Source: Fragilaria crotonensis (Eukaryota > Bacillariophyta > Fragilariophyceae > Fragilariales > Fragilariaceae). From it: a stretch of 20,646 nt of DNA. Both the position numbers and the translations under genes were made by a program. The stretch is from NCBI GenBank assembly GCA_022925895.1, contig JAKSYS010000830.1, forward strand, positions 1 through 20,646, given 5' to 3'. Below are positions 3,937 to 20,646 of this stretch, in pieces (position 1 is the stretch's first letter; every line of letters starts with the position of its first letter). The notes beneath the pieces are model-generated. The model saw nothing but the letters and a program-made list of their open reading frames with translations. It was not told where the DNA came from and searched no databases.

Positions 3937-5295
3937 TTAATCCAGCCTAGGCCTCAAATGGCGGCCACGCCCTCCAATCCGGATGCGTCCATTGGCATTG
4001 CGGGCACTCGTTCCATTTCCTTTCTGTCGCCGACCGTTTGAATCGATAAAAAAGTATTCATCATTATGAGTTGCCATGTTGATGCATTCGTACCATTGTT
4101 TTTCAAACGGCCCGTATCCACAGCTTGGATTGCCGCATCTGCGGATATCCAAGCCCTGCAGAGATTGCCTCGTAGCTTCTTCCTCTTTACGACGCGCTGT
4201 TTCCAGTCGTTCCTGTTCCTGGCGAAGGCGCTCAGCTTCCGCCGCGCGTTCTTCTTCCAAACGCTTTCGTTGCAGTTCAGCCGCCTCTCGTCGGGCAATT
4301 CGCTCTTGGCGAAGACGTTCCTCCGCCGCCGCCGCCGCGGCTTGTGCATTCGCCACTTCCCGATGCAAAGTCACTAATTCGTCTTCAAGACTGTCCACAA
4401 GACTTTGCAACTGTTGACGAAGGCTCCCATAATATTCATCCAGCGCGCGTTCTGATTCAAGTCGAGCGAGTTCCAGATTATTGCGAAGGACAAGAACTTG
4501 ATGCCGGATCCGAACAGAAGGATAACGGAGGTCAAGGGGAAGTTCAATAACGTCATCAATACCGATCGTCCCAATAGCCGCCAAGTCTGAGATTGCAATC
4601 TCTACAGTCGCTGCATTCAATGAGGGTAAAATCAGTTCAGTATTGTCTTCAACTTCAATCCTTGCCTTCGAGTGATTTGAAGATGCCGTCACGTCCCCAC
4701 TTGAGGCATCACCAGCATGATCGTTCAACGAAGATGAAGCGTGATCTGAATTCGAGGCCGATTTTCTGCTGGTGAAGGGCATGAGTACCATTCGAGTAAG
4801 TGAGCTTGCAAAGCTGAGACCTAGGAAACCATGCTGATCATTCCCATCATCACACGTTGCCCTGGCAGTGGTACCAATGGAGAAGCCTGGCACTGGAAGT
4901 GCGTGGCTTTGTTGTCGCTGCTCAAGTTCTTCCTTTGCCTGCGTCAATTCCATGGACAACTGGTCGTATCTGTGCATTAACTCGCTAACTTTCATGCCAA
5001 ACACGTCGTCATGCTCATCGGAAGGACCCTCGTCGACCAAGGCATCATGTTCCGCCATGGCAGCAGCACATCTACATTCCAAATCCTTAACATGCTCTGT
5101 CGTCTCTTCCGATCCTGCAGTTTTCTCGCCGAGGTTTGCCTCGTTCAATCTCAAGGACATTGCAACACCGAGGTCCGCCGTAGCTTCATTCAGCTGATGC
5201 TCAAGAAGCGAGCCTCGAATCATGCCTTCTTCTGTGGTCCAATCAATTTCATCCCATTCTGCGCTGATTTCAGAAATTCTAATTTGCAAGCGCAC
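3937..5295 (-). CDS. C-terminal coiled-coil segment of the large gene
   Basis: This frame of 452 codons continues the gene after the frameshift at about 5521; the stretch 5296-5520 is open in the same frame and joins them. It holds coiled-coil blocks (VKDLECRCAAAMAEHDAL, ELMHRYDQLSMELTQAKEEL), a Ser-rich linker, a conserved SDLAAIGTIGIDDVIELPLD block and a long Glu/Arg/Ala helix (EERLRQERIARREAAEL onward). The Cys-rich end is RRCGNPSCGYGPFEKQWYEC. After NGRRQ a one-base deletion (4021-4024) puts the annotated end in the wrong frame. In the paralogue this region continues to an ECPQCQW motif, which gene 1 also encodes in the shifted frame and which ends at the TAG at 3947-3949. Confidence 0.75.
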   Translation of the reverse strand: MRLQIRISEISAEWDEIDWTTEEGMIRGSLLEHQLNEATADLGVAMSLRLNEANLGEKTAGSEETTEHVKDLECRCAAAMAEHDALVDEGPSDEHDDVFGMKVSELMHRYDQLSMELTQAKEELEQRQQSHALPVPGFSIGTTARATCDDGNDQHGFLGLSFASSLTRMVLMPFTSRKSASNSDHASSSLNDHAGDASSGDVTASSNHSKARIEVEDNTELILPSLNAATVEIAISDLAAIGTIGIDDVIELPLDLRYPSVRIRHQVLVLRNNLELARLESERALDEYYGSLRQQLQSLVDSLEDELVTLHREVANAQAAAAAAEERLRQERIARREAAELQRKRLEEERAAEAERLRQEQERLETARRKEEEATRQSLQGLDIRRCGNPSCGYGPFEKQWYECINMATHNDEYFFIDSNGRRQKGNGTSARNANGRIRIGGRGRHLRPRLD

Positions 5296-5310
5296 TTCAT
5301 CTTCAGTCGG

Positions 5311-5520
5311 AGTATCTGTCGCAGGCAGTTTTGTCTCAAAAGCAGATACATCACGGTCTGTTTTGGCAGCGTTGGCTTGGTCTTGAGCTAGGCGAATTTG
5401 GTTCTCAAGTGTTGCCGTCTCTGACGCAGGCAGTTTTTTCTCAATAGTATCTCCATCATGGCCTGTTTTGGCGGCGTTTGCTTGCTCCTGAGCTAGGCGA
5501 ACTTGATTCTCGAGCGTTGC
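5311..5520 (-). repeat. Two 35-codon tandem repeats in coiled coil
   Basis: Units 5416-5520 and 5311-5415 each encode a 35-residue repeat beginning ATLENQ(V/I)RLAQ(E/D)QANAAKT and ending KLPA(S/T)(E/D)T. The paralogue at 18501-20646 has a single related unit (LTLENQILQAQQHAKAAART), so a duplication occurred after the two genes split, or a unit was lost there. The insertion that breaks the frame lies exactly at the start of unit 1. Confidence 0.9.
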
Positions 5521-8500
5521 CCTTTTCTTGTAGGAGCTCCTCGATTCTCTGGCTCAAGACTTTGGCATCCGTCGCATACGCTTGATGGATGCGGTATTGC
5601 AATACTTGATGTTGGAGCTCAGCTTTCTGATCCATCAGAGAAGCCAAGAACTGTCTCAATGCCTCGTCAATTCTTCTAATCAGTCGCGATTCACCAGTGT
5701 CTGATTCTGTTGCGGATCTTGTGCGCAAGACGTGCAAAATCTGCGCCACGCATTCTGGGCAGATCGCATGATCGTCATCCAAAACATCGGAGTACCGAGG
5801 CTTCGCCTCCTTAACATGGAATACAAGGCAGTCAGAGCATAGAATCAGTGTGCATCGGGCACACGCACCTTGACGCGTCGTCTCCAATCTGGTTCGGCAG
5901 CAACTGTTGCTACACCTTGGAATCGTCACTTGTTCACGGGCTGGTCGCTCCCAGTCGTCCGGGCAAAGTGCCACTGCAACTCCAAGATAGAAGTGACCCG
6001 CACGATCGAATGATTGGCTTTGCATCAACACCGTATTGGAGTTGATAGAAACCACAGAAGGTGACTTGGACTCGTGCTGCCTGCTTTCCTGCGTACTCTG
6101 AAGGGTTGACTGAGCAACGACCCGTGCTCGTCTTTCCTGTGCAAGTCTTGTCTTTTCCTTACGTCGCTTTCTCCAATCCTCGAGCTCGCCGTCATCAATG
6201 GGTGTCTGAACCGACTTCACTAGCGATTGAACAGATGGAGCACGCTGGTCATTATTGATGCGAATCTCGGAAATCGGCTCTGCCGAGATGGAGCATGTCG
6301 GGTCAAACTTTCGATCGAGGTTACAACTTTCATCAGCAGTCAATACAATGCCATTCAAGTAACGAAGTCTTTCTTCCGTCTCAGCCATCGTCACACGTCC
6401 AGCAGAGAAATGGAGTTCGATTGGAGATCTCTCATAAGTGTGTCCACTCTCGCAAATCACTGGTTCGGTGTCAAGTTCCTCGGTCATGGGAACTCGAAAA
6501 TGTCCTTGCAAGTCAGGCCATCCACCATGCGGAATTCCCTTGTCGCAAAAGACAGCATCGGCAAATAGCATCTCAGCAGTATCCGCGAATGTTTCCTCAA
6601 CAGCATCGGCGAACCCTTCCAGAGCGACGTAATCTCGAAAAGGAGCTTGCGCATCAGACAATTTCTCATGCGGGTGTCTTCTGTCAGAAACTACAGCTTT
6701 GACGAATGGCTCCCCACTGATGCAATCTTGCGAGTGTAGCAGCGCTCCGGACAACTTGTCATGTGTGTTCCTCTTGTCGCGACACTCAGGATCGGCGAGA
6801 GCTTTCACATTGATCGAATCTTGCAAGTGCAACTCTTGCCCGACCTGCAACAAAGTGGATCCATCCACCGAAGAAGTCGTGAATCGCGACGCTCCTAAGG
6901 TCAACTGTGGCTTGCGGACAATGGCATGCGCTTCAAACATATTCATCTGCTGGGCGTGAAGGGTATCGCCCAGTCCTTCGATGTTTGGAAATTTCTCAAG
7001 TAAAGCGGCGGCTGCAGTTTCCACGGAACCATACCGCATGACAAAGGCTTTCTTAGGGTTATCGAATTGGTTGCCGTGACTGTCAAATAGAAACCACGGA
7101 GCATCGCGGCGCACATCCTTACAGATGAGCAAGATGGTTTCCGGGGGCTTGGTGAGGACCACCGCGACCGATTTCTCGTCGTGACAGTGAGCGTAGGTTC
7201 TCGCCTCCCCGATACATTCTTGAAAGGAGCGTTGAGAAGTAGTCCCGTAAATCACCGTTCGTCGTTGGAGCGGTTGGACAATGTCTGAGTAGAGTGGGTG
7301 GTTCCAGAGATCATCAAGACTTGCATGTTCTCGGTGTTGGAGAAAGAGATCGTTGAAGATCATAGTACCATCTTGAAGGTATCCGTCCAGTGCTCCGGTA
7401 GTAATGCACGATGGTGTTTCGGTTATCTTGTTCAACAGCTGTGCTGCGGCATAGAGACAAATTGACGTGCAGGCCGATCTGCCACCTTCAATTGCATACT
7501 GTGAAAAGTTTGCTTCTGCAATCATGTCTCCGAGAGGACGAGAAGGCGACATAAGCATCAACTGTGAACGATTGTCACGAGTTCCATTCATTTGCAAAGA
7601 AAGCAATCGTGCCATCTCCTCATCGCCACGCTGGTTTTCTTCGGCAGCAAAGGCAGCGGATGGTGGCTTCGTAAGGGATGCATATCGTGGAACGAAAGCG
7701 GAGGAGGGATAATCATGTTGATTGCGAGCATCAAGTTTCTCCACTTGTATCGTTGAATCCTTGGTGACAAGCTTGGATAATGGTTCCTTCACAGCATCGG
7801 CGAACCCTTCCAGAACGACGTAATCTTGAAAAGGAGCTTGCGCATCAGACAATTTCTCATGCGGGTGTCTTCTGTCAGAAACTACAGCTTTGGCGAATGG
7901 CTTCCCACTGATGGAATCTCGCGAATGTAGCAGCGCTCCAGACAACTTGTCATGTGTGTTCCTCTTGTCGCGACACTCAGGATCGGCGAGAGCTTTCGCA
8001 TTGATCGAATCTTGCAAGTGCAACTCTTGCCCGACCTGCAACAAAGTGGATCCATCCACCGAAGAAGTCGTGAATCGCGACACTCCTAAGGTTACTTGTG
8101 GCTTGCGGACAATGGCGTGCGCTTCAAACATATTCATCTGCTGGGCGTGAAAGGTATCGCCCAGTCCTTCGATGTTTGGAAATTTCTCAAGTAAAGCGGC
8201 GGCTGCAGTTTCCACGGAACCATACCGCATGACAAAGGCTTTCTTAGGGTTATCGAATTGGTTGCCGTGACTGTCAAATAGAAACCACGGAGCATCGCGG
8301 CGCACATCCTTACAGATGAGCAAGATGGTTTCCGGGGGCTTGGTGAGGACCACCGCGACCGATTTCTCGTCGTGACAGTGAGCGTAGGTTCTCGCCTCCC
8401 CGATACATTCTTGAAAGAAGCGTTGAGAAGTAGTCCCGTAAATCACCGTTCGTCGTTGGAGCGGTTGGACAATGTCTGAGTAGAGTGGGTGGTTCCAGAG

Positions 8501-8650
8501 ATCGTCAAGACTTGCATGTTCTCGGTGTTGGAGAAAGAGATCGTTGAAGATCATAGTACCATCTTGAAGGTATCCGTCCAGTGCTCCGGTAGTAATGCAC
8601 GATGGTGTTTCGGTTATCTTGTTCAACAGCTGTGCTGCGGCATAGAACAA
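5456..8650 (-). CDS. Central segment: protease-like tandem, U-box, zinc finger
   Basis: This open frame of about 1,064 codons has no genuine start: its first codon is TTG inside a domain. It carries the rest of protease-like copy 1, all of copy 2, a U-box and a zinc finger. Copy 2 has SACTSICLYAAAQLL (Cys codon 7469-7471) and PWFLFDSHGNQFD, a possible Cys and Asp-x-His catalytic set. The U-box reads FRVPMTEELDTEPVI then SGHTYERSPIELHF (about 6505-6390); its second half is divergent. The zinc finger (about 5930-5745) has CSNSCC, GACARC, LCSDC and HAICPEC, a RING/FYVE-type cross-brace spacing without the FYVE RHHCR signature. The end (after RIEELLQEK) is an artefact of a one-base insertion at 5520-5522. 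Confidence 0.75.
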   Translation of the reverse strand: MFYAAAQLLNKITETPSCITTGALDGYLQDGTMIFNDLFLQHREHASLDDLWNHPLYSDIVQPLQRRTVIYGTTSQRFFQECIGEARTYAHCHDEKSVAVVLTKPPETILLICKDVRRDAPWFLFDSHGNQFDNPKKAFVMRYGSVETAAAALLEKFPNIEGLGDTFHAQQMNMFEAHAIVRKPQVTLGVSRFTTSSVDGSTLLQVGQELHLQDSINAKALADPECRDKRNTHDKLSGALLHSRDSISGKPFAKAVVSDRRHPHEKLSDAQAPFQDYVVLEGFADAVKEPLSKLVTKDSTIQVEKLDARNQHDYPSSAFVPRYASLTKPPSAAFAAEENQRGDEEMARLLSLQMNGTRDNRSQLMLMSPSRPLGDMIAEANFSQYAIEGGRSACTSICLYAAAQLLNKITETPSCITTGALDGYLQDGTMIFNDLFLQHREHASLDDLWNHPLYSDIVQPLQRRTVIYGTTSQRSFQECIGEARTYAHCHDEKSVAVVLTKPPETILLICKDVRRDAPWFLFDSHGNQFDNPKKAFVMRYGSVETAAAALLEKFPNIEGLGDTLHAQQMNMFEAHAIVRKPQLTLGASRFTTSSVDGSTLLQVGQELHLQDSINVKALADPECRDKRNTHDKLSGALLHSQDCISGEPFVKAVVSDRRHPHEKLSDAQAPFRDYVALEGFADAVEETFADTAEMLFADAVFCDKGIPHGGWPDLQGHFRVPMTEELDTEPVICESGHTYERSPIELHFSAGRVTMAETEERLRYLNGIVLTADESCNLDRKFDPTCSISAEPISEIRINNDQRAPSVQSLVKSVQTPIDDGELEDWRKRRKEKTRLAQERRARVVAQSTLQSTQESRQHESKSPSVVSINSNTVLMQSQSFDRAGHFYLGVAVALCPDDWERPAREQVTIPRCSNSCCRTRLETTRQGACARCTLILCSDCLVFHVKEAKPRYSDVLDDDHAICPECVAQILHVLRTRSATESDTGESRLIRRIDEALRQFLASLMDQKAELQHQVLQYRIHQAYATDAKVLSQRIEELLQEKGNARESSSPSSGASKRRQNRP
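6590..7780 (-). repeat. Tandem duplication inside gene, copy 2 (gene-3' copy)
   Basis: Second unit of the in-gene duplication, with its frame intact. The shared sequence ends near 6590, where copy 2 diverges into unique sequence leading to the U-box (EETFADTAEMLFADAVF). In copy 1 the same point (EGFADAVKE) runs straight into the next unit (PLSKLVTKDST), which marks the duplication joint near 7780. Confidence 0.95.
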
Positions 8651-8969
8651 ATTGACGTGCAGGCCGATCTGCCACCTTCAATTGCATACTGTGAAAAGTT
8701 TGCTTCTGCAATCATGTCTCCGAGAGGACGAGAAGGCGACATACGCATCAACTGAGAACGATTGTGGCGAGTTCCATTTATTTGCAAAGAAAGCAATCGT
8801 GCCATCTCCTCATCGCTACGCTGGTTTTCTTCGGCAGCAAAGGCAGCGGATGGTGGCTTCGTAAGGGATGCATATCGTGGAACGAAAGCGGAGGAGGGAT
8901 AATCATGTTGATTGCGAGCATCAAGTTTCTCCACTTGTATCGTTGAATCCTTGGTGATAAGCTTGGATA
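7781..8969 (-). repeat. Tandem duplication inside gene, copy 1 (gene-5' copy)
   Basis: About 1,190 bp repeated head-to-tail with 6590-7780. Corresponding points lie 1,191 bp apart, exactly 397 codons, except that this copy lacks one base (gaac at 8645-8648 against gagac at 7454-7458). The copies differ by scattered substitutions only. The unit runs from just after the ubiquitin-like region (ITKDSTIQVEKL) to EGFADAV and encodes one complete protease-like module. Confidence 0.95.
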
Positions 8970-9216
8970 TTTTGTCCATGTCGCGGAGATTCATTGGGCT
9001 TGCTCCGTCATCGTGTAGCAACCAGAGCTCCAGGTCCAGGTCGCGTTGAATGTTTAAGTGAGAACGAGCCATTTCTTTAAGTTCCCCCGAGGTCGTTGAC
9101 TTGGTGTTAATCTTTCGGAGTCGTGCTTCACGGGTCGCCAGTGTACCATTGGACGAGAATTCTTCAACCTTCAAGAGTATGTCGACTTTCTTTGTCATCC
9201 TGTCAAATGAAAGCAT
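8623..9216 (-). CDS. N-terminal segment: ubiquitin-like region and protease copy 1 start
   Basis: This 197-codon frame is the 5' end of the large gene. Residues ~7-100 fit a ubiquitin-like fold by pattern: VDILLKVEEF strand, a helix TTSGELKEMARSHLNI, then LELWLLHDDG and DSTIQVEKL. A DEEMARLLSLQ segment resembles ubiquitin-interacting or short E3-type helices, weakly. The frame then enters protease-like copy 1 (NFSQYAIEGG, then RSACTSIC). Five codons after the putative catalytic Cys (codon at 8659-8661) a one-base deletion sends it to a stop, leaving a tail SMPQHSC. Taken literally, the gene would make only this short protein. The upstream in-frame TGA supports the chosen start. Confidence 0.7.
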   Translation of the reverse strand: MLSFDRMTKKVDILLKVEEFSSNGTLATREARLRKINTKSTTSGELKEMARSHLNIQRDLDLELWLLHDDGASPMNLRDMDKISKLITKDSTIQVEKLDARNQHDYPSSAFVPRYASLTKPPSAAFAAEENQRSDEEMARLLSLQINGTRHNRSQLMRMSPSRPLGDMIAEANFSQYAIEGGRSACTSICSMPQHSC

Positions 9217-9562: not shown

Positions 9563-9772
9563 TGAACAAATGCTGTGGGTCTAGTGGTTAGGTGGTGTGC
9601 TACTAGGCACGGCTACTGTATGTCACGGTATATGTGGAAGCCAGTGAAGCTGTATTAGCGATTGAAGGTAATTGAGGGCTTCGCCTTACTTATCTTCAAA
9701 ATCTTTCTTTTATCGTCTATCTTTAACCTTTACACCAACAGAAAGTAGCGTCTCTTGGATCGTCCGGCAACA
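9563..9772 (+). repeat. 5' LTR of copia element
   Basis: Begins TGAACAAATGCTGTGG and ends GGCAACA, so it has the TG...CA ends of an LTR. It aligns through its whole length with 15038-15261, including the shared blocks CTTACTTATCTT, CCTTTACACCAACAG and GCGTCTCTTGGAT. It is shorter than the 3' LTR mainly because it lacks the GT-repeat insertion. Confidence 0.9.
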
Positions 9773-9780
9773 TTAATTCA

Positions 9781-9792
9781 GTTTATCAGACC
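9781..9792 (+). other. Candidate primer-binding site
   Basis: GTTTATCAGACC lies eight bases past the 5' LTR and shares TATCAGA with the usual copia primer site complementary to initiator methionine tRNA. The match is partial and the element is decayed. Confidence 0.45.
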
Positions 9793-10114
9793 GATACGCA
9801 TGATGCGAGCAGAGTGTTGAGCGGGCAACATGGGTATGCGATCCGGAGAAAGCGAGCGGCAAAAAATGAGTATCTTTCGTGCCACACGTGCGAATACCGG
9901 TCACGTCAGTGACGATTGACTGCAGGTACCGGTGCCTGTGGATATGAGTCGGAGATCAGGGTATCATCCTCTACTGACATTGCCTTAGCGGCAGTCAACA
10001 GCGGGCTGATCATCCAGGCCAGACTTGCATTTGTGATACCTGTACACAATATTTCACGTCAGCCGAGGGAATACCCTAACAATACGAACTTGTATTGCAT
10101 TGTAACATAGTTCA

Positions 10115-10623
10115 AACAAGGCTGAATTATAAGTCCTGCCGTTTAACAAGTTTCTTGACACGTCGCAGAGGATGTTTACAATATTCGAAGAAGAGAACAA
10201 GCCATCGACAGAAAGTGCTAAAGTCAACAAGTTCTTGTTGACCAAAGTTCAAAACTCTGGGCTGGCCACAGTTGTCACGCAAGCTCAGGTATCAATTGAA
10301 TACCACTGGTGTTATGTCTACTGTTGCTGCTTACCACCTTTATTCTGAAATAAATCACAGACACCTGACTACCAGTTATTGAGGAGAATAAATGCAACCA
10401 ACACAAGTACTAGCAGCAGCGGTTGCGGCTATGGGCGTGGCAAAGGAGGTGACCGCGGCCGTGGTGGTCGTGAAGGCAGAGGCAAGAATCTGAAAACAAC
10501 ATACTATCCCAAAGAAGAGTGGGAAAAGTTATCGTACAAAGAGAGGGGTAGGATCCGGAAAGAGCGTGACCGAAAGGGTGAACATGGAGGGACCAAACGC
10601 AGTATTGCGGAGATGTCCACATA
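10115..10623 (+). pseudogene. Copia Gag relic
   Basis: The frame from about 10115 carries a Gag-like block (PFNKFLDTSQRMFTIFEEEN, then KVNKFLLTKVQNSGLATVV) interrupted by stops. After a break comes a Gly/Arg-rich tail (GCGYGRGKGGDRGRGG) and YYPKEEWEKLSYKERGRIRK, the usual C-terminal signature of CoDi Gag, ending with a TAA at about 10622. Gag packages element RNA into virus-like particles in the cytoplasm (family knowledge). The region 9800-10115 is too decayed to read. Confidence 0.75.
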
Positions 10624-10849
10624 ATAACTAACAACCGCACTCATCAGTTGCTTGAAGGCTGCGGCGATCGAGGAGGGCAAATCCGGCAGTGAATCAAAAA
10701 CGAGCGCACCAAAGAAGCCAGATCAGGCCGGTAATGTATTTGGCGGAAGGGAAAACACGAAACAAGTCAAAGCCAACTAACTCGCGGTAGCACAGTATCT
10801 ATTGTCGGCGAGACGAACGCTGCCGAACAATCAAAAAATATTGTCCTTG

Positions 10850-11313
10850 CAAAAGGCGAGGGCCTCTTCTGCCCGTTGCGAACTTGACGCACACGCTGAC
10901 ACTACTGACCGTTGCGAACTTGATGCACACGCTGACACTTGTGCCCTAGGCAGCAACTTGATCCCTTTACATTTTGCAGGTCCAGCATGCGATGTTTCCC
11001 CTTACAACGCTGACTCATATGAACCAGAGCAAGATATACCCATTATCTGCGGAGCATCGGCATGGACATGCCAGGACAGTGGTCAAACATAGAATATCTT
11101 GGTTGTGAACCAATGCCTGTGGTTTGGCGACAAGCTTCAAAATACCCTTCTCAAACAAAACCAATTGCAATACTCGGGCATATTAGTGGCGGACAACCCA
11201 GCATTCAATCCAAAGGAATAGTTATTGATAGTAAACGATGACGTGACAATTCCAGTATTGCTCAGCGGCACAACCATTTACATGATTGAAACAACAACCC
11301 CAACACAATCGTA
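10850..11313 (+). pseudogene. Copia aspartic protease relic
   Basis: The block RCELDAHADTCALGSNLIPL contains the LDxHADTC signature that replaces D-S/T-G in CoDi proteases. Downstream blocks ICGASAWTCQDSGQT, NILVVNQCLWFGDKLQNTL, QYSGILVADNPAF and IPVLLSGTTIYMIE follow in order. An in-frame TAG at about 11090 and a second stop near 11220 break it. The active-site segment is duplicated (see 10874-10939). Its normal job would be cleavage of the Gag-Pol polyprotein. Confidence 0.8.
10874..10939 (+). repeat. 36-bp in-frame duplication of protease active site
   Basis: Thirty bases encoding RCELDAHADT occur at 10874-10903 and again at 10910-10939, with six bases between and one difference. The period is 36 bp, 12 codons, so the frame is preserved and the protease would carry two catalytic LDAHAD motifs in a row. 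Confidence 0.9.
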
Positions 11314-11339
11314 AGTTGATAATTGTCCTCACATTCATC

Positions 11340-12420
11340 TAACATGCAACTCTAAGTAGAATCCACAGACCGTTTGCCTGACGGAGGTGACGAGCAATGT
11401 TGAGAGCGATGTTGAGCCTGGATTAGCTCAAATTTCATCTGTATTCTGTGCCAAATCTTTGGCGGAGGCAATGAATCCCCCGCGTTTACATTTACTCAAA
11501 TCGACGCAAGTCGATGTCCCTGCAGCACGTACATTTGTTTCTAGTAACTGACATTCAACAGCATCGAGCGAGAATCTATGCAAGCGATGGAGCATTGGAC
11601 TTCAACAGGCGAAACAAATGCTGCAGGCTTCGACGCAGAAAGGAGTTTGTTCAGCGATCAAGCCATTGAGCCGGCGGTACTGAACGGACTTGATGTATCA
11701 ACAACGGAAATTGCGTAACCAACAATTCTATACCGACACCTTGATTGGGAAGTACAAAGTCACTCACTTACAACACGTGCTTGCAGATCTTTGTGAATGA
11801 ATCTCACTTTGCAAAAGCATACCCAATGGAAACTAAGGCGATGGCGTGAGCGGCACTGCGGCACTTTATTCGTGATTATAGTGTACCAGAAAAATGAACG
11901 TCTGACGGAGCAGGCAGCGGAGCAGACAGGTCCAAACACGGAATTCATGAAAACTATACGCAAGTATGGGATTGATCATTATCTCAGCAAACACCACCGG
12001 CCGAATCAGAATCGAGCCAAGTCGGTGATTCAAGAAGTCAAGCAAGAGTGGTTTTGTCAAATGGTTGAGCCACGTGTCCTAAGGACGACGCACGCTATGG
12101 GATTTTGGTATAGTATCGGTGTAGGACGACGTCGCTTACAGCAAATTCATCGTTTGCGCTTGGCGGCGGGAGAACACCAACGGAGCAGGTAACCGGAGAA
12201 ACGCCCGACATATCCTAATATCTTGATTTCGGACTTTATGATTGCTGGGTATGGTGTAAAGACAATGCCGGGGTTGGCGAGAACAGCTGGGGGCGCTAGC
12301 TCGGAGTCTCTCATCCAGTCGGCAACCTGATATTGGATACTAACCTTGGCAGGATGAGTGGTGTCGAGAATGATGGTACAAAGGAAAACTAACCTTGAGC
12401 AGGGCACAGGCGAAGTCAAG
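11340..12420 (+). pseudogene. Copia integrase relic
   Basis: Blocks typical of CoDi integrase appear in alternating frames: RWSIGLQQAKQMLQASTQKG near 11586-11645, KPLSRRY and MYQQRKLRNQQFYTDTLIGK near 11660-11750, FVNESHFAKAYPMETKAMA near 11790-11846, and RHFIRDYSVPEK near 11855-11890. FMKTIRKYGIDHYLS, HHRPNQNRAKSVIQEVKQEW and later YLDFGLYDCWVWCKDNAG follow. The last catalytic acidic residue, expected as Glu in the NRAE motif, is Lys (codon 12019-12021). Many frameshifts and stops are present. The enzyme would have inserted element cDNA into the genome; this one cannot. Confidence 0.8.
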
Positions 12421-12429
12421 CAGTGAATG

Positions 12430-13250
12430 AAGGAGTTTGACGAGCGGATCAGGGAGTTGTTAAAGGACCAAAACCATGTGATACAGGGTGAAGGGGACCG
12501 ACAACTTCAGGATTGGGATGAGTACACCGAAGACCCTGATCAAGCGTTCGTCGATGATTTTGATCGCCCAGTATCCGACGAGCGTATCTCAGAAGAGGAT
12601 TAGGACTTTACTCCTGACACGTTCCATGACACTTACATAAACAAGCAGCAGATTGTGCTACCACGAGGGGCAGGTGATAGTGAAAACGTACATTACGTAA
12701 GAGTGACCAAGCCTTTGCGAGATGTGGATGGAAGGCCCATCATCGGGATGGCTAACAAAAAACCAATGCTCGACACGAGGGAGTATGAAGTCGAGTTCAT
12801 GGATGGTCATTCTGGGGCCCTCGCTGCTAACCTGATTGTCCAAAACCTGTATTCGCAGATCGATGAGGTAGGGACAACCGACATATGATGTTGGATGCAA
12901 GACGATTGACAAAGAGGATGCATTTGTGACGATGGCCAACAGCTTGAAGCGCAGGAAGCAGACAACCCAAGGTTGGCAGTTGTTGTATCAATGGAGAGAT
13001 GTGAGCACAAATTGGGTGAACTTGAAGGACATAAAGCACTCATATCCTGTGCCAGTGGCGGAGTGTGCGTTTGCGAATCGCATTGACGACGAGCCTGCAT
13101 TTGCTTGGTGGGTGTCGCAAGTAATAAAGAAGCAGATCCGAGTGGTAGCAAAGCTGAAGTCAAAGTATTGGCAGCGCGCACATAAATTCGGAATCAGGAT
13201 CCCGAAGACAGTCAAGCAAGCGTTAGCGTTTGACGGAGAATGGTGACACA
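12430..13250 (+). pseudogene. Copia integrase-RT connecting region relic
   Basis: A well-preserved stretch of the pol polyprotein between integrase and RT. It contains DFTPDTFHDTYINKQQIVLP after a TAG at 12601-12603, VTKPLRDVDGRPIIGMANKK, TREYEVEFMDGHSGALAANL, then after a frameshift near 12890 GWQLLYQWRDVSTNWVNLKD and IDDEPAFAWWVSQVIKKQ. A second frameshift near 13230-13245 leads into RT. This linker is characteristic of CoDi elements and gives good support for the lineage. Confidence 0.8.
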
Positions 13251-14134
13251 AAATGGTGGGACGCAATCTGCGAGGAGATGAAAAACGTGAGACCGGCATG
13301 CAAGAGGTGGGAAGAAAAGGAAAGTGATTTGCCTCCAGGTTTCCAAAAGATCAAGTGTCATTTTATCTTCGACATCAAGATGGCGGGGAACTTCAGGTGT
13401 AAGGCAAGACTTGTGGCAAATGGTAACGAGACAGATGCACCCCCAACTCTGACGTATTTGTCAGTTGCGTCGAGGGACTCCGTACGGATAGCGTTGCTTG
13501 TCGCATCATTGAATGAATTGGAAGTACTTGTGTGCGATATTCAAAATGCGTATCTAACAGCTGATTGCAGAGAAAAGATTTACTTTATAGCAGGACCGGA
13601 GTTTGGGTCGGAGCAAGGTTTGATCATGATAGTCAAAAAGGCTCTGTATGGTCTAAAGTCAAGCGGTGCGGCATTTTGAGCACACCTGGCGGAGACGCTA
13701 TACAACTTGGGATACAAACCAACGAGGGGTGATCCCGATGTGTGAATTTGGCCGGCTTCCAAGCCATGCGGATTCGAGTACTATGAAATGTTTGCATATC
13801 GGCGGACCCGAGTGTAACGATGCACGGGATACAAGAGAATTTCAAGCTCAAAGACAATAAGATCAAAAAACCCGACACGTATTTGGGAGCACAGCTGAAA
13901 GAAATGTACATCAATGGTCAAATGTGTTGGACCATGAGCTGCGAACAGCATGTCAAGTCAGCAATTGCAAACGTGGTTGAAGCAAAACTTGATAAAGTGG
14001 GACAGATATTACCTTCAAAGTGCCTAACCCCTTTGCAATCCAATAACAGGCTGGAATTGGACACAACAGCGGAGTTGAAGATTGATGTTGTGCTATACTA
14101 TCAGGAATTAATTGGAGTCTTACGATGGGCATGA
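13230..14134 (+). pseudogene. Copia reverse transcriptase relic, YVDD box missing
   Basis: Starts with WWDAICEEMKNVRPA and LPPGFQKIKCHFIFDIKM. RT blocks follow: KARLVANGNETDAPPTLTY, SRDSVRIALLVASLNELEVL, CDIQNAYLTADCREKIYF and KKALYGLKSSGAAF. Two stops (13677-13679 and 13743-13745) fall where the family has Arg and Trp. At 13791-13792 the nine codons around the catalytic YVDD are reduced to two bases, joining EYYEM directly to the shifted frame CISADPSVTMHGI. The thumb region IKKPDTYLGAQLKEMYING continues to LRWA and a TGA at 14132-14134. The CDIQNAYL Asp remains, but the two Asp of YVDD are gone. Confidence 0.85.
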
Positions 14135-14845
14135 GTACTCGGCAGGATTGATATGGCGACCGAAGAATTGAAGATGTCTACTCACCTCGCTCTACCTCGT
14201 GATGGGCACCTTCGGCAGGTTTTTTTCTTCAGATATTTGAAAGCAAAGCCGAAAAGGACCATTGCTTATGATCCAACTCACCCTGACATTGACGAATCAA
14301 GATTTGTCCACTGCGACTGGCATGATTTTTACCGAGATGCAGCGAATTTGATTCCAGGGACATGCCCTACTAATGAAGAGGTTATGTAGTGCCACTACAT
14401 AACCTCTAATAGACAGTGTCTACTCGCTGTTTTGTTGATGTCGATCATGCAGGTAACAAGGTTACAATGAGGTTGCAATCTGGCATCCTATTGTTTGTTA
14501 ATTGAGCGATTATCCAATGGTATACTAGCAAGAGACAGAACACAGTTGAGACTTCCACATGGTAGTGAGTTTGTGGCTATGAGAATTGCAGTGGAGTTAG
14601 TCGAGGCGTTGCGTTACAAGTTGAGGATGTTTGGAGTTCCTATCGAAGGACGATCTACTAATGTTTTCTGCGACAACAAGGCAGCAACGAAGAACGCGAT
14701 GCATCCTGAATCAACCCTCAAGAAGAAAGACAATGCCATCGCGTACCACCGAATGCAAGAGGCGGTTGCTGCGGGGTCAATACAGGTGGCTAAGGAAGAC
14801 ACGAAGACCAATTTGGCTGATATATTGACCAAGCCTTTGCCCTAA
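14135..14845 (+). pseudogene. Copia RNase H relic
   Basis: Blocks: MSTHLALPRDGHLRQVFFF, AYDPTHPDIDESRFVHCDW, then (shifted) FVDVDHAGNKVTMRL near 14430-14475 with the first catalytic Asp, SKRQNTVETST, GSEFVAMRIAVELVEALRYK, NVFCDNKAATKNAMHPES, KKKDNAIAYHRMQEAVAAG and TNLADILTKPLP, ending in TAA at 14843-14845. The end of pol is well preserved over about 115 codons (14495-14845). A perfect hairpin at 14377-14407 interrupts the upstream part. The domain would remove RNA from the RNA-DNA hybrid during reverse transcription. Confidence 0.85.
14377..14407. repeat. Perfect 15-bp-arm palindrome
   Basis: AGAGGTTATGTAGTG (14377-14391), one C, then CACTACATAACCTCT (14393-14407): a perfect inverted repeat with a single-base centre, inside the RNase H relic. 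It introduces a stop in a place where related elements are open, so one arm is probably an inverted copy of the other. Confidence 0.95.
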
Positions 14846-15020
14846 GTCACAAGAGACTATTTGTGCGACAAATTTATGTATTGAGGACAGCAGAACCAGA
14901 AGCCAAGGTTCATCGTGTGTCGATCGCGGCGGCACCAATTACCTCCTGGGCATGCTAAAGGCATGTGGCATTGAATCCAGGTTCTTTGTGAAGCAACCAT
15001 AGCCTTGATCTGAATCCTCG

Positions 15021-15037
15021 CCGATGGTTGAGGGGAC
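15021..15037 (+). other. Polypurine-tract candidate
   Basis: CCGATGGTTGAGGGGAC directly precedes the TG of the 3' LTR. The GAGGGGA part is the expected plus-strand primer of an LTR element. Confidence 0.6.
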
Positions 15038-15261
15038 TGAACAAATGCTGTGGTTAGCTGGTAGGCTAGGCACGGGTAGTACTGTATATCACAGTGTACG
15101 TGCAAGCCGTGTGTGTGTGTGAATTACTTAGAGAATGAAGCAGTATCAGCGATTGACGGTAATTGAAGGCTTTGCCTTACTTATCTTAAAATCTTTCTCT
15201 ATTGTCTATCTTAAACCTTTACACCAACAGTAAAAAGCGTCTCTTGGATTGCCCGGCAACC
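15038..15261 (+). repeat. 3' LTR of copia element
   Basis: Aligns with 9563-9772 from TGAACAAATGCTGTGG to CCGGCAAC. It differs by many point changes and contains a GT microsatellite and adjacent sequence (about 15105-15140) missing from the 5' LTR. The terminal base is C rather than A. Confidence 0.9.
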
Positions 15262-17965: not shown

Positions 17966-18500
17966 TCATGCAGAACAGCTACTTTGTGATGTTATTGTGT
18001 TGTGTTGGTGTCAAAAAAAGATGGTCGATGCACGTTTGTACAGCAGTGTATACTAGGGACTGGCACGTCAAGCCCCAAAAATCTGAAGACGTATGACTTT
18101 GTGACCAGAATGTACTGTACCCACGAGCACACCTATGGCCACATAATTCCTCACATCAACAAGCCAAGACTTGTTGATAGAATAACACAGCTTATTTCAT
18201 CTGTGGGAATCAAATGACAAAGCTAAGCAATGGGTGAGATCCTCACCTTTGAAAGTGTGTCAATGTTGTGGCGTTCGGGTATGATAATTTGCGAGGAGCA
18301 GAAATTGCGGCACCTTCCAAACGGGTGCAAATTGCAACAGGCGTTATTGCAAGTTATTGCAAATCGTGTAAAAGTAGATTAAAAGTTAGCTATATTACAG
18401 CAGATAACAGGTGTTTTCCATTTTAGGAATAGATAAGAGGTGCAATAGCAATTTCCCCTTAAAAACTATTGTCAGCGTCATGCTGCAGCTACCATCCAGC
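17966..18500. other. MULE 3' flank and gene-free stretch
   Basis: No clear gene. A 71-codon frame at 18002-18217 (TKTYDFVTRMY-like, with CTHEHTYGHIIPHINKPRLV) may be a decayed companion reading frame, but I cannot name it. At 18330-18360 the word TTATTGCAA recurs. The segment ends with a candidate element terminus at 18438-18458, followed by the duplicated 3' flank of the paralogous gene. Confidence 0.4.
18438..18458. repeat. Candidate right terminus of MULE
   Basis: On the minus strand this begins GGGGAAATTGCTATTGCACC, a G-rich start like many terminal inverted repeats. It lies downstream of the transposase C-terminus and 43 bp from the neighbouring gene's stop. No partner repeat was found in the window. 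Confidence 0.3.
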
Positions 18501-18780
18501 CTAGGCATCGAACCTCGGCCAAGCATTCCAATTCGGGTTTGTCCATTGGCATTGAGGGCACTCGTTCCTTTTGCGTTGTTGTCGCCTACCATTTGCATCG
18601 ATAAAGGTGAATACATCGTTGTGGGCAGCCATGTCGTTGCATGCGTATTTTTCAAACGGTCCGTATCCACAGCTTGGATTGCCGCATCTGCGAAGATCCA
18701 AGCCCCGTAGAGATTTCCTCGTAGCTTTTTCCTCTTTACGACGGGCTGCTTCCAGCCGTTCTTGTTCTTGGCGAAGGCGC

Positions 18781-19362
18781 TCAGCTTCCGCCGCACGTTC
18801 TTCTTCCCAAGCGCTTTCGTCGCAGCTCAGCAGCCGCTCGTCGGGCAATTCGCTCTTGGCGAAGACGTTCTTCCTCCTCCGCCGTAGCTTGTGCATTCGC
18901 CACATCCCGATGCAAAGTCACTATTTCGTCTTCCAGTCTCTCCACACGACTTTGCAACTGTTGACGAAGACTCGCATAATAGTCATCTAGCGCGCGTTCT
19001 GATTCAAGTCGTGCAAGTTCCAGAATATTGCGAAGGACTAGAACTTGATGCCGGATCCGATCAGAGGGATAATGGAGGTCAAGGGGAAGTGCGATAACTT
19101 CTTCAATGCCGATTGTCCCAATAGCAGCCAAGTCTGAGATTGCAATCTCTGCTGCCGTTGCATTCAAGGAGGGTAAAATCACTTCAATATAGTCAATCCC
19201 TGCCGAAGCTTGATTTGAAGGTGCCATCACGTCACCCCTCGAGGCATCACCGGCAGAGGATGTCGATTTTCTGCTGGTGAAGGGCATGAGCAAGATCCGA
19301 GTAAGCGAGCCGGCGAAGGTGAGACCAAGGAAGCCCTGCTTTTCATTTTGATCTTCACACAC
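18781..19362 (-). CDS. Middle coiled-coil segment of the second gene copy
   Basis: Continues the second copy after the shift near 19360. It reads EKQGFLGLTFAGSLTRILLM, then SDLAAIGTIGIEEVIALPLD, RIRHQVLVLRNILELARLES and a Glu/Arg-rich helix (EERLRQERIARRAAAELRRK). These blocks match gene 1 nearly residue for residue, with a shorter Ser-rich linker. The frame is lost again at 18806-18808, so the true continuation lies in the frame ending at 18501. Confidence 0.75.
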   Translation of the reverse strand: MCEDQNEKQGFLGLTFAGSLTRILLMPFTSRKSTSSAGDASRGDVMAPSNQASAGIDYIEVILPSLNATAAEIAISDLAAIGTIGIEEVIALPLDLHYPSDRIRHQVLVLRNILELARLESERALDDYYASLRQQLQSRVERLEDEIVTLHRDVANAQATAEEEERLRQERIARRAAAELRRKRLGRRTCGGS

Positions 19363-20459
19363 GTTTCACCGGCACTGGTACAAGGGCATAACGCTGGCAC
19401 TGGAAGTGCACGGCTTTGTTGTCGCTGCTCGAGTTCTTCCTTCGCCTGCATCAATTCAAGGGACAGTTGGTCATATCTGTGTGATAGCTCGCTAACTTTC
19501 ATGGAAAACACATGGTCATGCTCGTTGGAAGGACCCTTCTGTATCAAGGCATCATGTTCCGCCATGGCAGCAGCACATCTACATTCCAAATCCTGAATCT
19601 GCTCCGTCGTCACTTCGGATGTGGAAGTTTCCTCGCCGACGTTGAATTCTCTTGCTTCCAAGGACATGGCAACACCGAGGTCTACCATTGCTTCATTAAG
19701 CTGATAATCTAGGAGGGAGCCTCTAATCGTACCTTCCTCTGTGGTCCAATCAATGGAATTCAATTCCGTGCTGATTTCTGATATCCTTGTTTGCAAACGC
19801 TGTTCATCTGGAGTTGAAGAATCTGACGCAGGCATTCTTTCGTCCAAATCAGATTCATCATGGTCTGTTCTGGCAGCGGCTTTGGCGTGCTGTTGAGCTT
19901 GGAGAATTTGGTTCTCAAGTGTTAGCCTTATCTGCTGGAGCTCCTCGATTCGCTGACTCAAGACTTCGGCATCCGTTACAAATGATTGATGGACACGGTA
20001 GTGAAGAATTTGATGTTGGAGTTCCGTTTTTTCATCCATGAGAGAAGCAAAGAACTGTTTCAAAGCTTCGCCAATTTCTTCCACCAACCGAGATTCGTCG
20101 CTGCCTGGTTCTGCGGCAGATCGTGTGCTCACGACACGTAGAATCTGCAAAGTGCATTCTGGACAGATCGCATGATCGTCATCCAAAGCATCAGTGTCTC
20201 TAGAGTTCGCGTCCTTAACATGGAATACAAGACAGTCGGAGCATAGAATCTGTGTGCATCGGGCACATGCCCCTTGACTCGATGTCTGAAGTCGAGTTCG
20301 ACAGCAACTGTTGCAACACCTTGGAATCGACACTTGTTCACGGACAAGTCGCTCCCAGTCACTCGGGCAAAGTGCAACTGCAACCCCTAGATAGAAATGA
20401 CCTTCACGATTGTACGCTTGACGTTGAATCACCACTGCGTTGGAGTCCATACTAACCAC
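19227..20459 (-). CDS. Longest open segment of the second gene copy
   Basis: About 410 codons open. The first codon at 20457-20459 is GTG, and the frame continues upstream to the window edge, so this is not a true start. It covers the zinc finger and the coiled coils (ELQHQILHYRVHQSFV, VLSQRIEELQQIRLTLENQ, MKVSELSHRYDQLSLELMQA). The last ~45 codons, after the shift near 19360, are out of frame and not real protein. In contrast to gene 1, this copy joins the zinc finger to the coiled coil in one frame. Confidence 0.75.
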   Translation of the reverse strand: MVSMDSNAVVIQRQAYNREGHFYLGVAVALCPSDWERLVREQVSIPRCCNSCCRTRLQTSSQGACARCTQILCSDCLVFHVKDANSRDTDALDDDHAICPECTLQILRVVSTRSAAEPGSDESRLVEEIGEALKQFFASLMDEKTELQHQILHYRVHQSFVTDAEVLSQRIEELQQIRLTLENQILQAQQHAKAAARTDHDESDLDERMPASDSSTPDEQRLQTRISEISTELNSIDWTTEEGTIRGSLLDYQLNEAMVDLGVAMSLEAREFNVGEETSTSEVTTEQIQDLECRCAAAMAEHDALIQKGPSNEHDHVFSMKVSELSHRYDQLSLELMQAKEELEQRQQSRALPVPALCPCTSAGETCVKIKMKSRASLVSPSPARLLGSCSCPSPAENRHPLPVMPRGVT

Positions 20460-20646
20460 AGCTGTTGGTTCGGACTCATTTTGACTACTTTCGTGAGTAC
20501 TCTGAAGGGTTGAATGAGAATTGACCTGCTCTCGTCGTTCCTGTGCAAGTCTTGCCTTTTCCTCACGTCGCTGTCTCCAATCCTCAAGCTCACCATCCTG
20601 AAGGGGGATCTGACCCGACTCAGCAAGAAGTTGAACCAGTCGATCA

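Follow-up and report, generated by a model that had tools for sequence, protein, structure and literature searches.

The stretch of DNA analysed here (the window) comprises 20,646 nucleotides of contig JAKSYS010000830.1 from the diatom Fragilaria crotonensis, and analysis of its sequence confirmed that a gene on its minus strand, annotated as MHU86_25299 (P0005 in our protein search), is predicted to encode a long single polypeptide that joins a deubiquitinase domain of the herpesvirus-tegument type (VTD) to a U-box-derived domain, a pairing common to its relatives. The locus was read from 9225 to 3937 in three overlapping frames, with the second of two VTD copies, the U-box and a zinc finger lying in one stop-free frame of 1073 codons. 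The original prediction, made from the sequence by itself, had placed deubiquitinase-like and ligase-like domains in one polypeptide, and this was upheld both by the 1073-codon frame and by the relatives, 6 of 11 of which carry VTD and U-box in one open reading frame (ORF). Our preferred explanation, on which we are evenly divided, is that the gene is one member of a family of large diatom scaffolds in which a K6-type VTD sits inside a ligase built of a ubiquitin-like (UBL) domain, U-box, FYVE-like finger and coiled coil; its members would act as editors of ubiquitin chains, with the window copy leaning to deubiquitination. Sequence and fold together established the UBL domain, the catalytic residues of VTD copy 2, the U-box homology, a nine-Cys finger and co-linearity in the relatives; the enzyme activities are predicted.

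The Asp-x-His domain, proposed earlier as papain-type on the clue of that residue pair, is by its sequence a member of the named deubiquitinase class VTD (Erven 2022, PMC9741609). Its modelled structure had the VTD fold and the nearest protein by both sequence and fold was Wc-VTD1 (8adb, 8adc), whose catalytic C313, D440 and H442 aligned pairwise with the Cys, Asp and His of the window VTD (the main text of PMC9741609 gives the catalytic residue once as Cys319 and the mutant as C313A; the chain numbering in our 8adb alignment agrees with 313). The acidic pair E363/N364 of Wc-VTD1 fell on Asp-Asp in the profile alignment and by E363 only in the pairwise one. The catalytic set of copy 2 is complete, with its Cys and the invariant Asp-x-His, and this copy retained 34 of 35 invariant columns, counted over six rows without P0014 because the VTD of that protein is partial. 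In copy 1 the reading frame breaks shortly downstream of its Cys. The structure model reached a mean predicted local distance difference test score (pLDDT) of 50.6 overall, with ten-residue means of 51-91 in the VTD part that fell below 50 just before the catalytic Cys, and, as regards the C-terminal alpha9 helix of the K6 type, residues 214-219 of the model formed a short helix before the last strand. Closeness to Wc-VTD1 suggests that the window VTD probably prefers K6-linked chains. The biological role of K6-specific VTDs has been called enigmatic, and acquisition of a K6-type VTD by the precursor of alveolates and stramenopiles has been proposed (main text of PMC9741609). Patterns made from the VTD alignment, with a reach of relatives having two short conserved motifs, matched 60 stretches in viral contigs and 50 in genome contigs, where a prokaryotic origin was sought, and tblastn recovered no relatives from either set. 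Neither herpesvirus M48 (2j7q) nor the Helitron domain DrT1-VTD2 (8add) was among the matches of the sequence profile search.

The U-box-like block of the original prediction was supported as U-box homology, more weakly in this copy than in the relatives. The window domain matched the plant U-box 1t1h in phmmer (E 2.2e-5), a real but weak match, and scored 18.9 bits against Pfam PF04564, below the gathering cut-off of 21.4, while 7 of the 8 scanned relatives scored at or above the cut-off (P0010 exactly equal to it; the remaining protein, P0011, reached 13.9 bits and begins inside the domain). About 30 inserted residues separate the first half of the U-box from the second, and the second half in P0010 aligned weakly with the TCPxT...PN of PUB12. 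The Pro of TCPLT, which aligns weakly with the TCPKT of PUB12, was Ser in the window copy and Pro in all eight relatives. The second-loop Pro of the U-box has a role in E2 binding; a literature search for a CHIP mutant at this position found none. Where a U-box column was conserved in at least seven of the eight relatives (31 columns), the window copy kept it in 21 cases. The controls P0006 and P0007 kept 25 of 25, their column sets differing from the 31 because the rows used to define them included the window row. No Pfam match to RBR (RING-IBR-RING) was found in the window frames (E up to 1) or in the eight relatives (E up to 0.1).

The linkers before the U-box were found to hold degenerate repeats of its first half. 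Those in linker 1 of the window gene scored 50 and 64, where 99% of 1000 shuffles gave at most 22 and the best gave 30. Linker 2 held repeats scoring 47, 55 and a weak 26 (of 1000 shuffles, 99% stayed at or below 22), the last being within reach of chance because the best shuffle scored 38. In P0006 the linker contained four such repeats at residues 394, 425, 456 and 487 (span 394-517), exactly 31 residues from one to the next, and the U-box at 518 falls in the same register. They scored 64-75, where the best of 1000 shuffles scored 32. The linkers of P0007 and P0010 had no half-U-box repeats above the shuffle threshold.

Of the remaining parts, the N-terminus folded as a beta-grasp domain, in agreement with its earlier description as ubiquitin-like; Pfam gave no match for the N-terminal window frame, and the start of P0015 matched only below threshold (Ubiquitin_4, 12.4 bits). 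The UIM-like stretch had no Pfam match in the window, and a query of two joined P0013 pieces gave a weak, sub-threshold UIM match (20.3 against 21 bits). The proposed cross-brace zinc finger was corroborated by nine Cys columns that were invariant in ten sequences (the window gene, its paralogue and eight relatives), with a spacing resembling that of FYVE or RING cross-braces, and Pfam FYVE scores lay below the cut-off of 27.8 (window 10, P0013 20.3, P0015 16.9 bits). For the Cys-rich end of P0014 no Pfam family scored above its cut-off (a zinc ribbon was sub-threshold) and there was no match in the PDB.

Protein searches, which scored only candidates sharing most words (7,988 in the first and 7,996 in the third), gave 12 proteins including the window's own, with the full-alignment search of the best 7,996 candidates adding only P0016. 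VTD and U-box occurred in one ORF in P0006, P0007, P0010, P0012, P0013 and P0014. The Cys, the Asp-x-His and the U-box were present together in P0006, P0007, P0010 and P0013, which also share the domain order, and P0012 and P0014 start after the Cys. P0006 and P0007 have one VTD each. P0013, from the MMETSP transcript set, has in a single ORF everything from a UBL-like start to the coiled coil but not the Cys-rich end. A U-box without VTD was found in P0011, a fragment starting in the U-box, and in the long P0015, where a UBL-like start is combined with U-box, finger and Cys-rich end, apparently without a VTD. A VTD without U-box was found in P0016 (short, from a 1,610-base contig), P0008 and P0009; the gene models of the last two combine a UBA-like start and VTD with methylmalonyl-CoA mutase, as a true fusion or a merged model. 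P0010, from Seminavis robusta, was the only one of the eight scanned proteins with a Pfam PAH (paired amphipathic helix) match, between VTD and U-box at residues 496-537 (E 7.9e-10).

The F. crotonensis genome itself (62.1 Mb, 881 contigs) was searched in the same way, by scoring the best candidates only, and yielded no full-architecture copy beyond the window gene and the truncated tail of a paralogue on the same contig. The nearby duplicate of the original prediction is thus present but only as a tail, and the expanding lineage-specific family that it was taken to suggest did not appear, the genome adding only one UBA-VTD gene. That gene is separate and uninterrupted (L012:3398-4186; G000:C51:39963-40682, plus strand), and encodes about 240 amino acids, in which a UBA domain just above the Pfam cut-off (22.6 against 22.4) precedes a VTD that carries the Cys and Asp-x-His (match to 8adb, E 7.7e-6). 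Further copies are possible, since the published draft (61.85 Mb, 879 contigs; PMC9476933) has a BUSCO completeness of 81% and only best candidates were scored.

Lineage-specific changes were counted in the window gene and in P0006, with P0007 as outgroup. The U-box had 28 window-only changes compared with 3 in P0006 (97 sites; binomial p 4.6e-6), and stood out against the other domains (Fisher p 6e-4), with 12 versus 10 changes in VTD copy 2 (204 sites), 10 versus 6 in the linker to the finger, 4 versus 4 in the finger, and 18 versus 13 and 14 versus 13 in two coiled-coil stretches. The UBL showed 11 versus 3 changes (p 0.057), for which no acceleration is claimed. Using P0010 as outgroup repeated the contrast (U-box 25 versus 2, VTD 11 versus 6). 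A fast U-box beside an even VTD suggested that the window U-box, and not the VTD, has been released from constraint or redirected. Between the window gene and its paralogue the ratio of nonsynonymous to synonymous substitution rates (dN/dS) was 0.29-0.52 in four larger stretches, and values below 1 between paralogues show purifying selection in the sense of past constraint only. A relative-rate test between the two was not significant (39 versus 26 unique changes in 567 sites, p 0.14), and the branching of window gene, paralogue and P0006 was unsettled, with 11, 7 and 5 supporting sites.

In the intact members of the family, the U-box would recruit an E2 and build chains on a substrate, and the VTD would trim or remove chains (probably K6-linked ones) carried by that substrate or by the editor protein. 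The UBL and UIM-like parts may be binding sites for ubiquitin or the proteasome, with oligomers, and so an oligomeric scaffold, formed through the coiled coil. In the window copy the VTD appears to have been duplicated and kept while the U-box is losing conserved positions, which points to deubiquitination on a scaffold as the most likely main activity of this copy, provided that it is expressed whole. The self-editing ubiquitin factor originally envisaged describes the relatives more aptly than it does this copy, whose U-box falls short of the Pfam cut-off and in which conserved positions are gone.

The window copy could instead be a pseudogene, a duplicate of an intact VTD-U-box gene now in decay, with the tandem VTD, the frame breaks and the worn U-box all products of decay, an explanation we consider doubtful. 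Relative to P0006 there were three frame breaks in the window gene and two in the paralogue tail, the U-box is evolving fast, and a Copia-type retrotransposon separates the copies. However, VTD copy 2 and the finger have changed about as much as in P0006 and the coiled coil little faster, all but one of the invariant VTD columns are kept, and dN/dS is below 1 in the larger stretches, although as a record of past constraint only. Two of the three window breaks also lie in or beside short A runs, in an assembly made with Canu from nanopore R9.4.1 reads and polished with Illumina short reads (PMC9476933). The breaks agree with genuine decay and also with errors of a nanopore assembly where the DNA is repeated.

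A similarly tentative alternative, compatible with the preferred explanation, concerns the tandem VTD and not the gene, and holds the tandem to be an assembly artefact such as two haplotypes joined head to tail. The two copies were 97.9% identical over 285 codons (dS, the synonymous rate, 0.037), and P0006 and P0007 have a single VTD, which speaks for it; against it, the 1191-nt spacing of the copies is divisible by three, which chance gives in 1 of 3 cases. The dN/dS between the copies was 0.46 (18 differences in 285 codons), and for the 103 codons that precede the Cys it was 0.77; the changes are too few for these values to decide on selection. It is improbable that the U-box has changed function and left both halves active, making the window copy a self-editing ligase with a new E2 preference: the 21 conserved columns remaining and the multiplication of half-U-box repeats beside the domain are in keeping with this, but the loss of the TCPLT Pro (itself placed by weak alignment with PUB12) and the sub-threshold Pfam score are not. 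Least probable by far is that separate genes were joined by gene models, for although the annotated model P0005 begins within VTD copy 1 and is missing a stretch around a frame break, the single open frame holds VTD copy 2, U-box and finger, and P0006, P0007, P0010 and the MMETSP-derived P0013 have the same order.

Several points weigh against the preferred explanation of a diatom family of chain-editing scaffolds. The named diatoms are only Fragilaria and Seminavis, so the family is a diatom one partly by extrapolation. The K6 preference is deduced from closeness to Wc-VTD1, and of the alpha9 residues that are important in Wc-VTD1, F483 is replaced by Met, and L481 is matched by Gln or by a gap, depending on the alignment. 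The U-box and finger part of the structure model was of low confidence, its U-box portion being unusable. With its three frame breaks the copy could be dead, and a fifth window-paralogue stretch, of 25 codons only, had a dN/dS of 1.65.

The domain order had been thought to belong to no named family. The deubiquitinase class proved to be a named one, and VTD fused to a ubiquitin ligase (E3) has a precedent in the VTD-RBR proteins of Agaricomycetes (PMC9741609); what holds is that VTD with U-box in one protein was not found in the open-licence literature searched (supplements not covered), and the main text of PMC9741609 mentions neither diatoms nor U-box. The window protein resembles the Agaricomycete fusions, as published, in having VTD and an E3 domain in one chain, but its E3 is a U-box and it has a UBL, FYVE-like finger and coiled coil. 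With the K6-type VTDs (Wc-VTD1 of Waddlia, the fungal Si-VTD and Sl-VTD, and Nf-VTD of Naegleria; PMC9741609) it shares the papain-like fold, Cys plus Asp-x-His and an acidic pair after HTSV; unlike them, its VTD is in tandem and embedded in a U-box scaffold, and L481/F483 of Wc-VTD1 are not kept. Homology to the U-box ligases (plant PUBs, CHIP) is found in the first half of the domain, with weaker alignment in the second, and the insert of about 30 residues, the score below the Pfam cut-off and the missing TCPLT Pro set the window copy apart from them. A20 likewise has deubiquitinase and ligase activity in one protein, with an OTU domain and A20-type fingers. The likeness to such editors is one of idea only, and no homology is claimed.

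Table 1. Coordinates in the window of the domains of the VTD-U-box gene and of its paralogue.
Feature	Position	Strand	Remarks
N-terminal UBL (ubiquitin-like, beta-grasp) domain	8926..9198	-	
UIM-like acidic stretch DEEMARLLSLQ	8782..8814, again at 7592-7624	-	From reading of the sequence; weak
VTD copy 1	8093..8706	-	Cys codon 8659-8661; frame break ~8641-8647
Linker 1, two degenerate U-box first-half repeats	7841..8017	-	
VTD copy 2, uninterrupted	6905..7516	-	Cys 7469-7471; Asp-Ser-His 7076-7084
Linker 2, degenerate U-box first-half repeats, two clear and one weak	6509..6826	-	
U-box-derived domain, split by ~30-residue insert, fast evolving in window copy	6215..6505	-	
FYVE/RING-like cross-brace zinc finger, nine invariant Cys	5750..5914	-	
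Coiled-coil region (from reading of the sequence; conserved in relatives)	4145..5700	-	Frame break ~5519-5529
C-terminal Cys-rich motif CGNPSCGYGP...CPQC	3950..4137	-	Frame break ~4018-4030
Paralogue tail: U-box end, zinc finger, coiled coil, Cys-rich end	18494..20645	-	Truncated by contig end; two frame breaks

The Copia-type retrotransposon between the two gene copies spans about 9645-15260 of the window, with an RVT_2 domain at 13227-13679 (Pfam), and direct repeats at 9645-9771 and 15136-15260 look like parts of its long terminal repeats. For genes beside the VTD-U-box gene, Helitron genes included, the analysis covered Pfam searches of four flanking frames. Elsewhere in the window were a transposase remnant at 264-626 (Pfam Plant_tran, E 2.7e-7) and, at 2244-2469, a perfect 107-nt direct repeat with a spacing of 119 nt.

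To our knowledge, a deubiquitinase and a ligase in one chain are rare. One reading of the present gene, which we put forward tentatively, is that K6-type VTDs may have been captured independently by E3s of different classes, those of the RBR type in mushrooms and those of the U-box type in diatoms, and that one Fragilaria duplicate may be drifting from editor to pure eraser, with its VTD doubled, its U-box worn and half-U-box repeats filling the linker. If true, writing and erasing on one scaffold would be a recurrent solution for K6-linked chains. P0015, apparently without a VTD, together with the window copy and its seemingly worn ligase half, makes a comparison set for what the erasing half does for the ligase.

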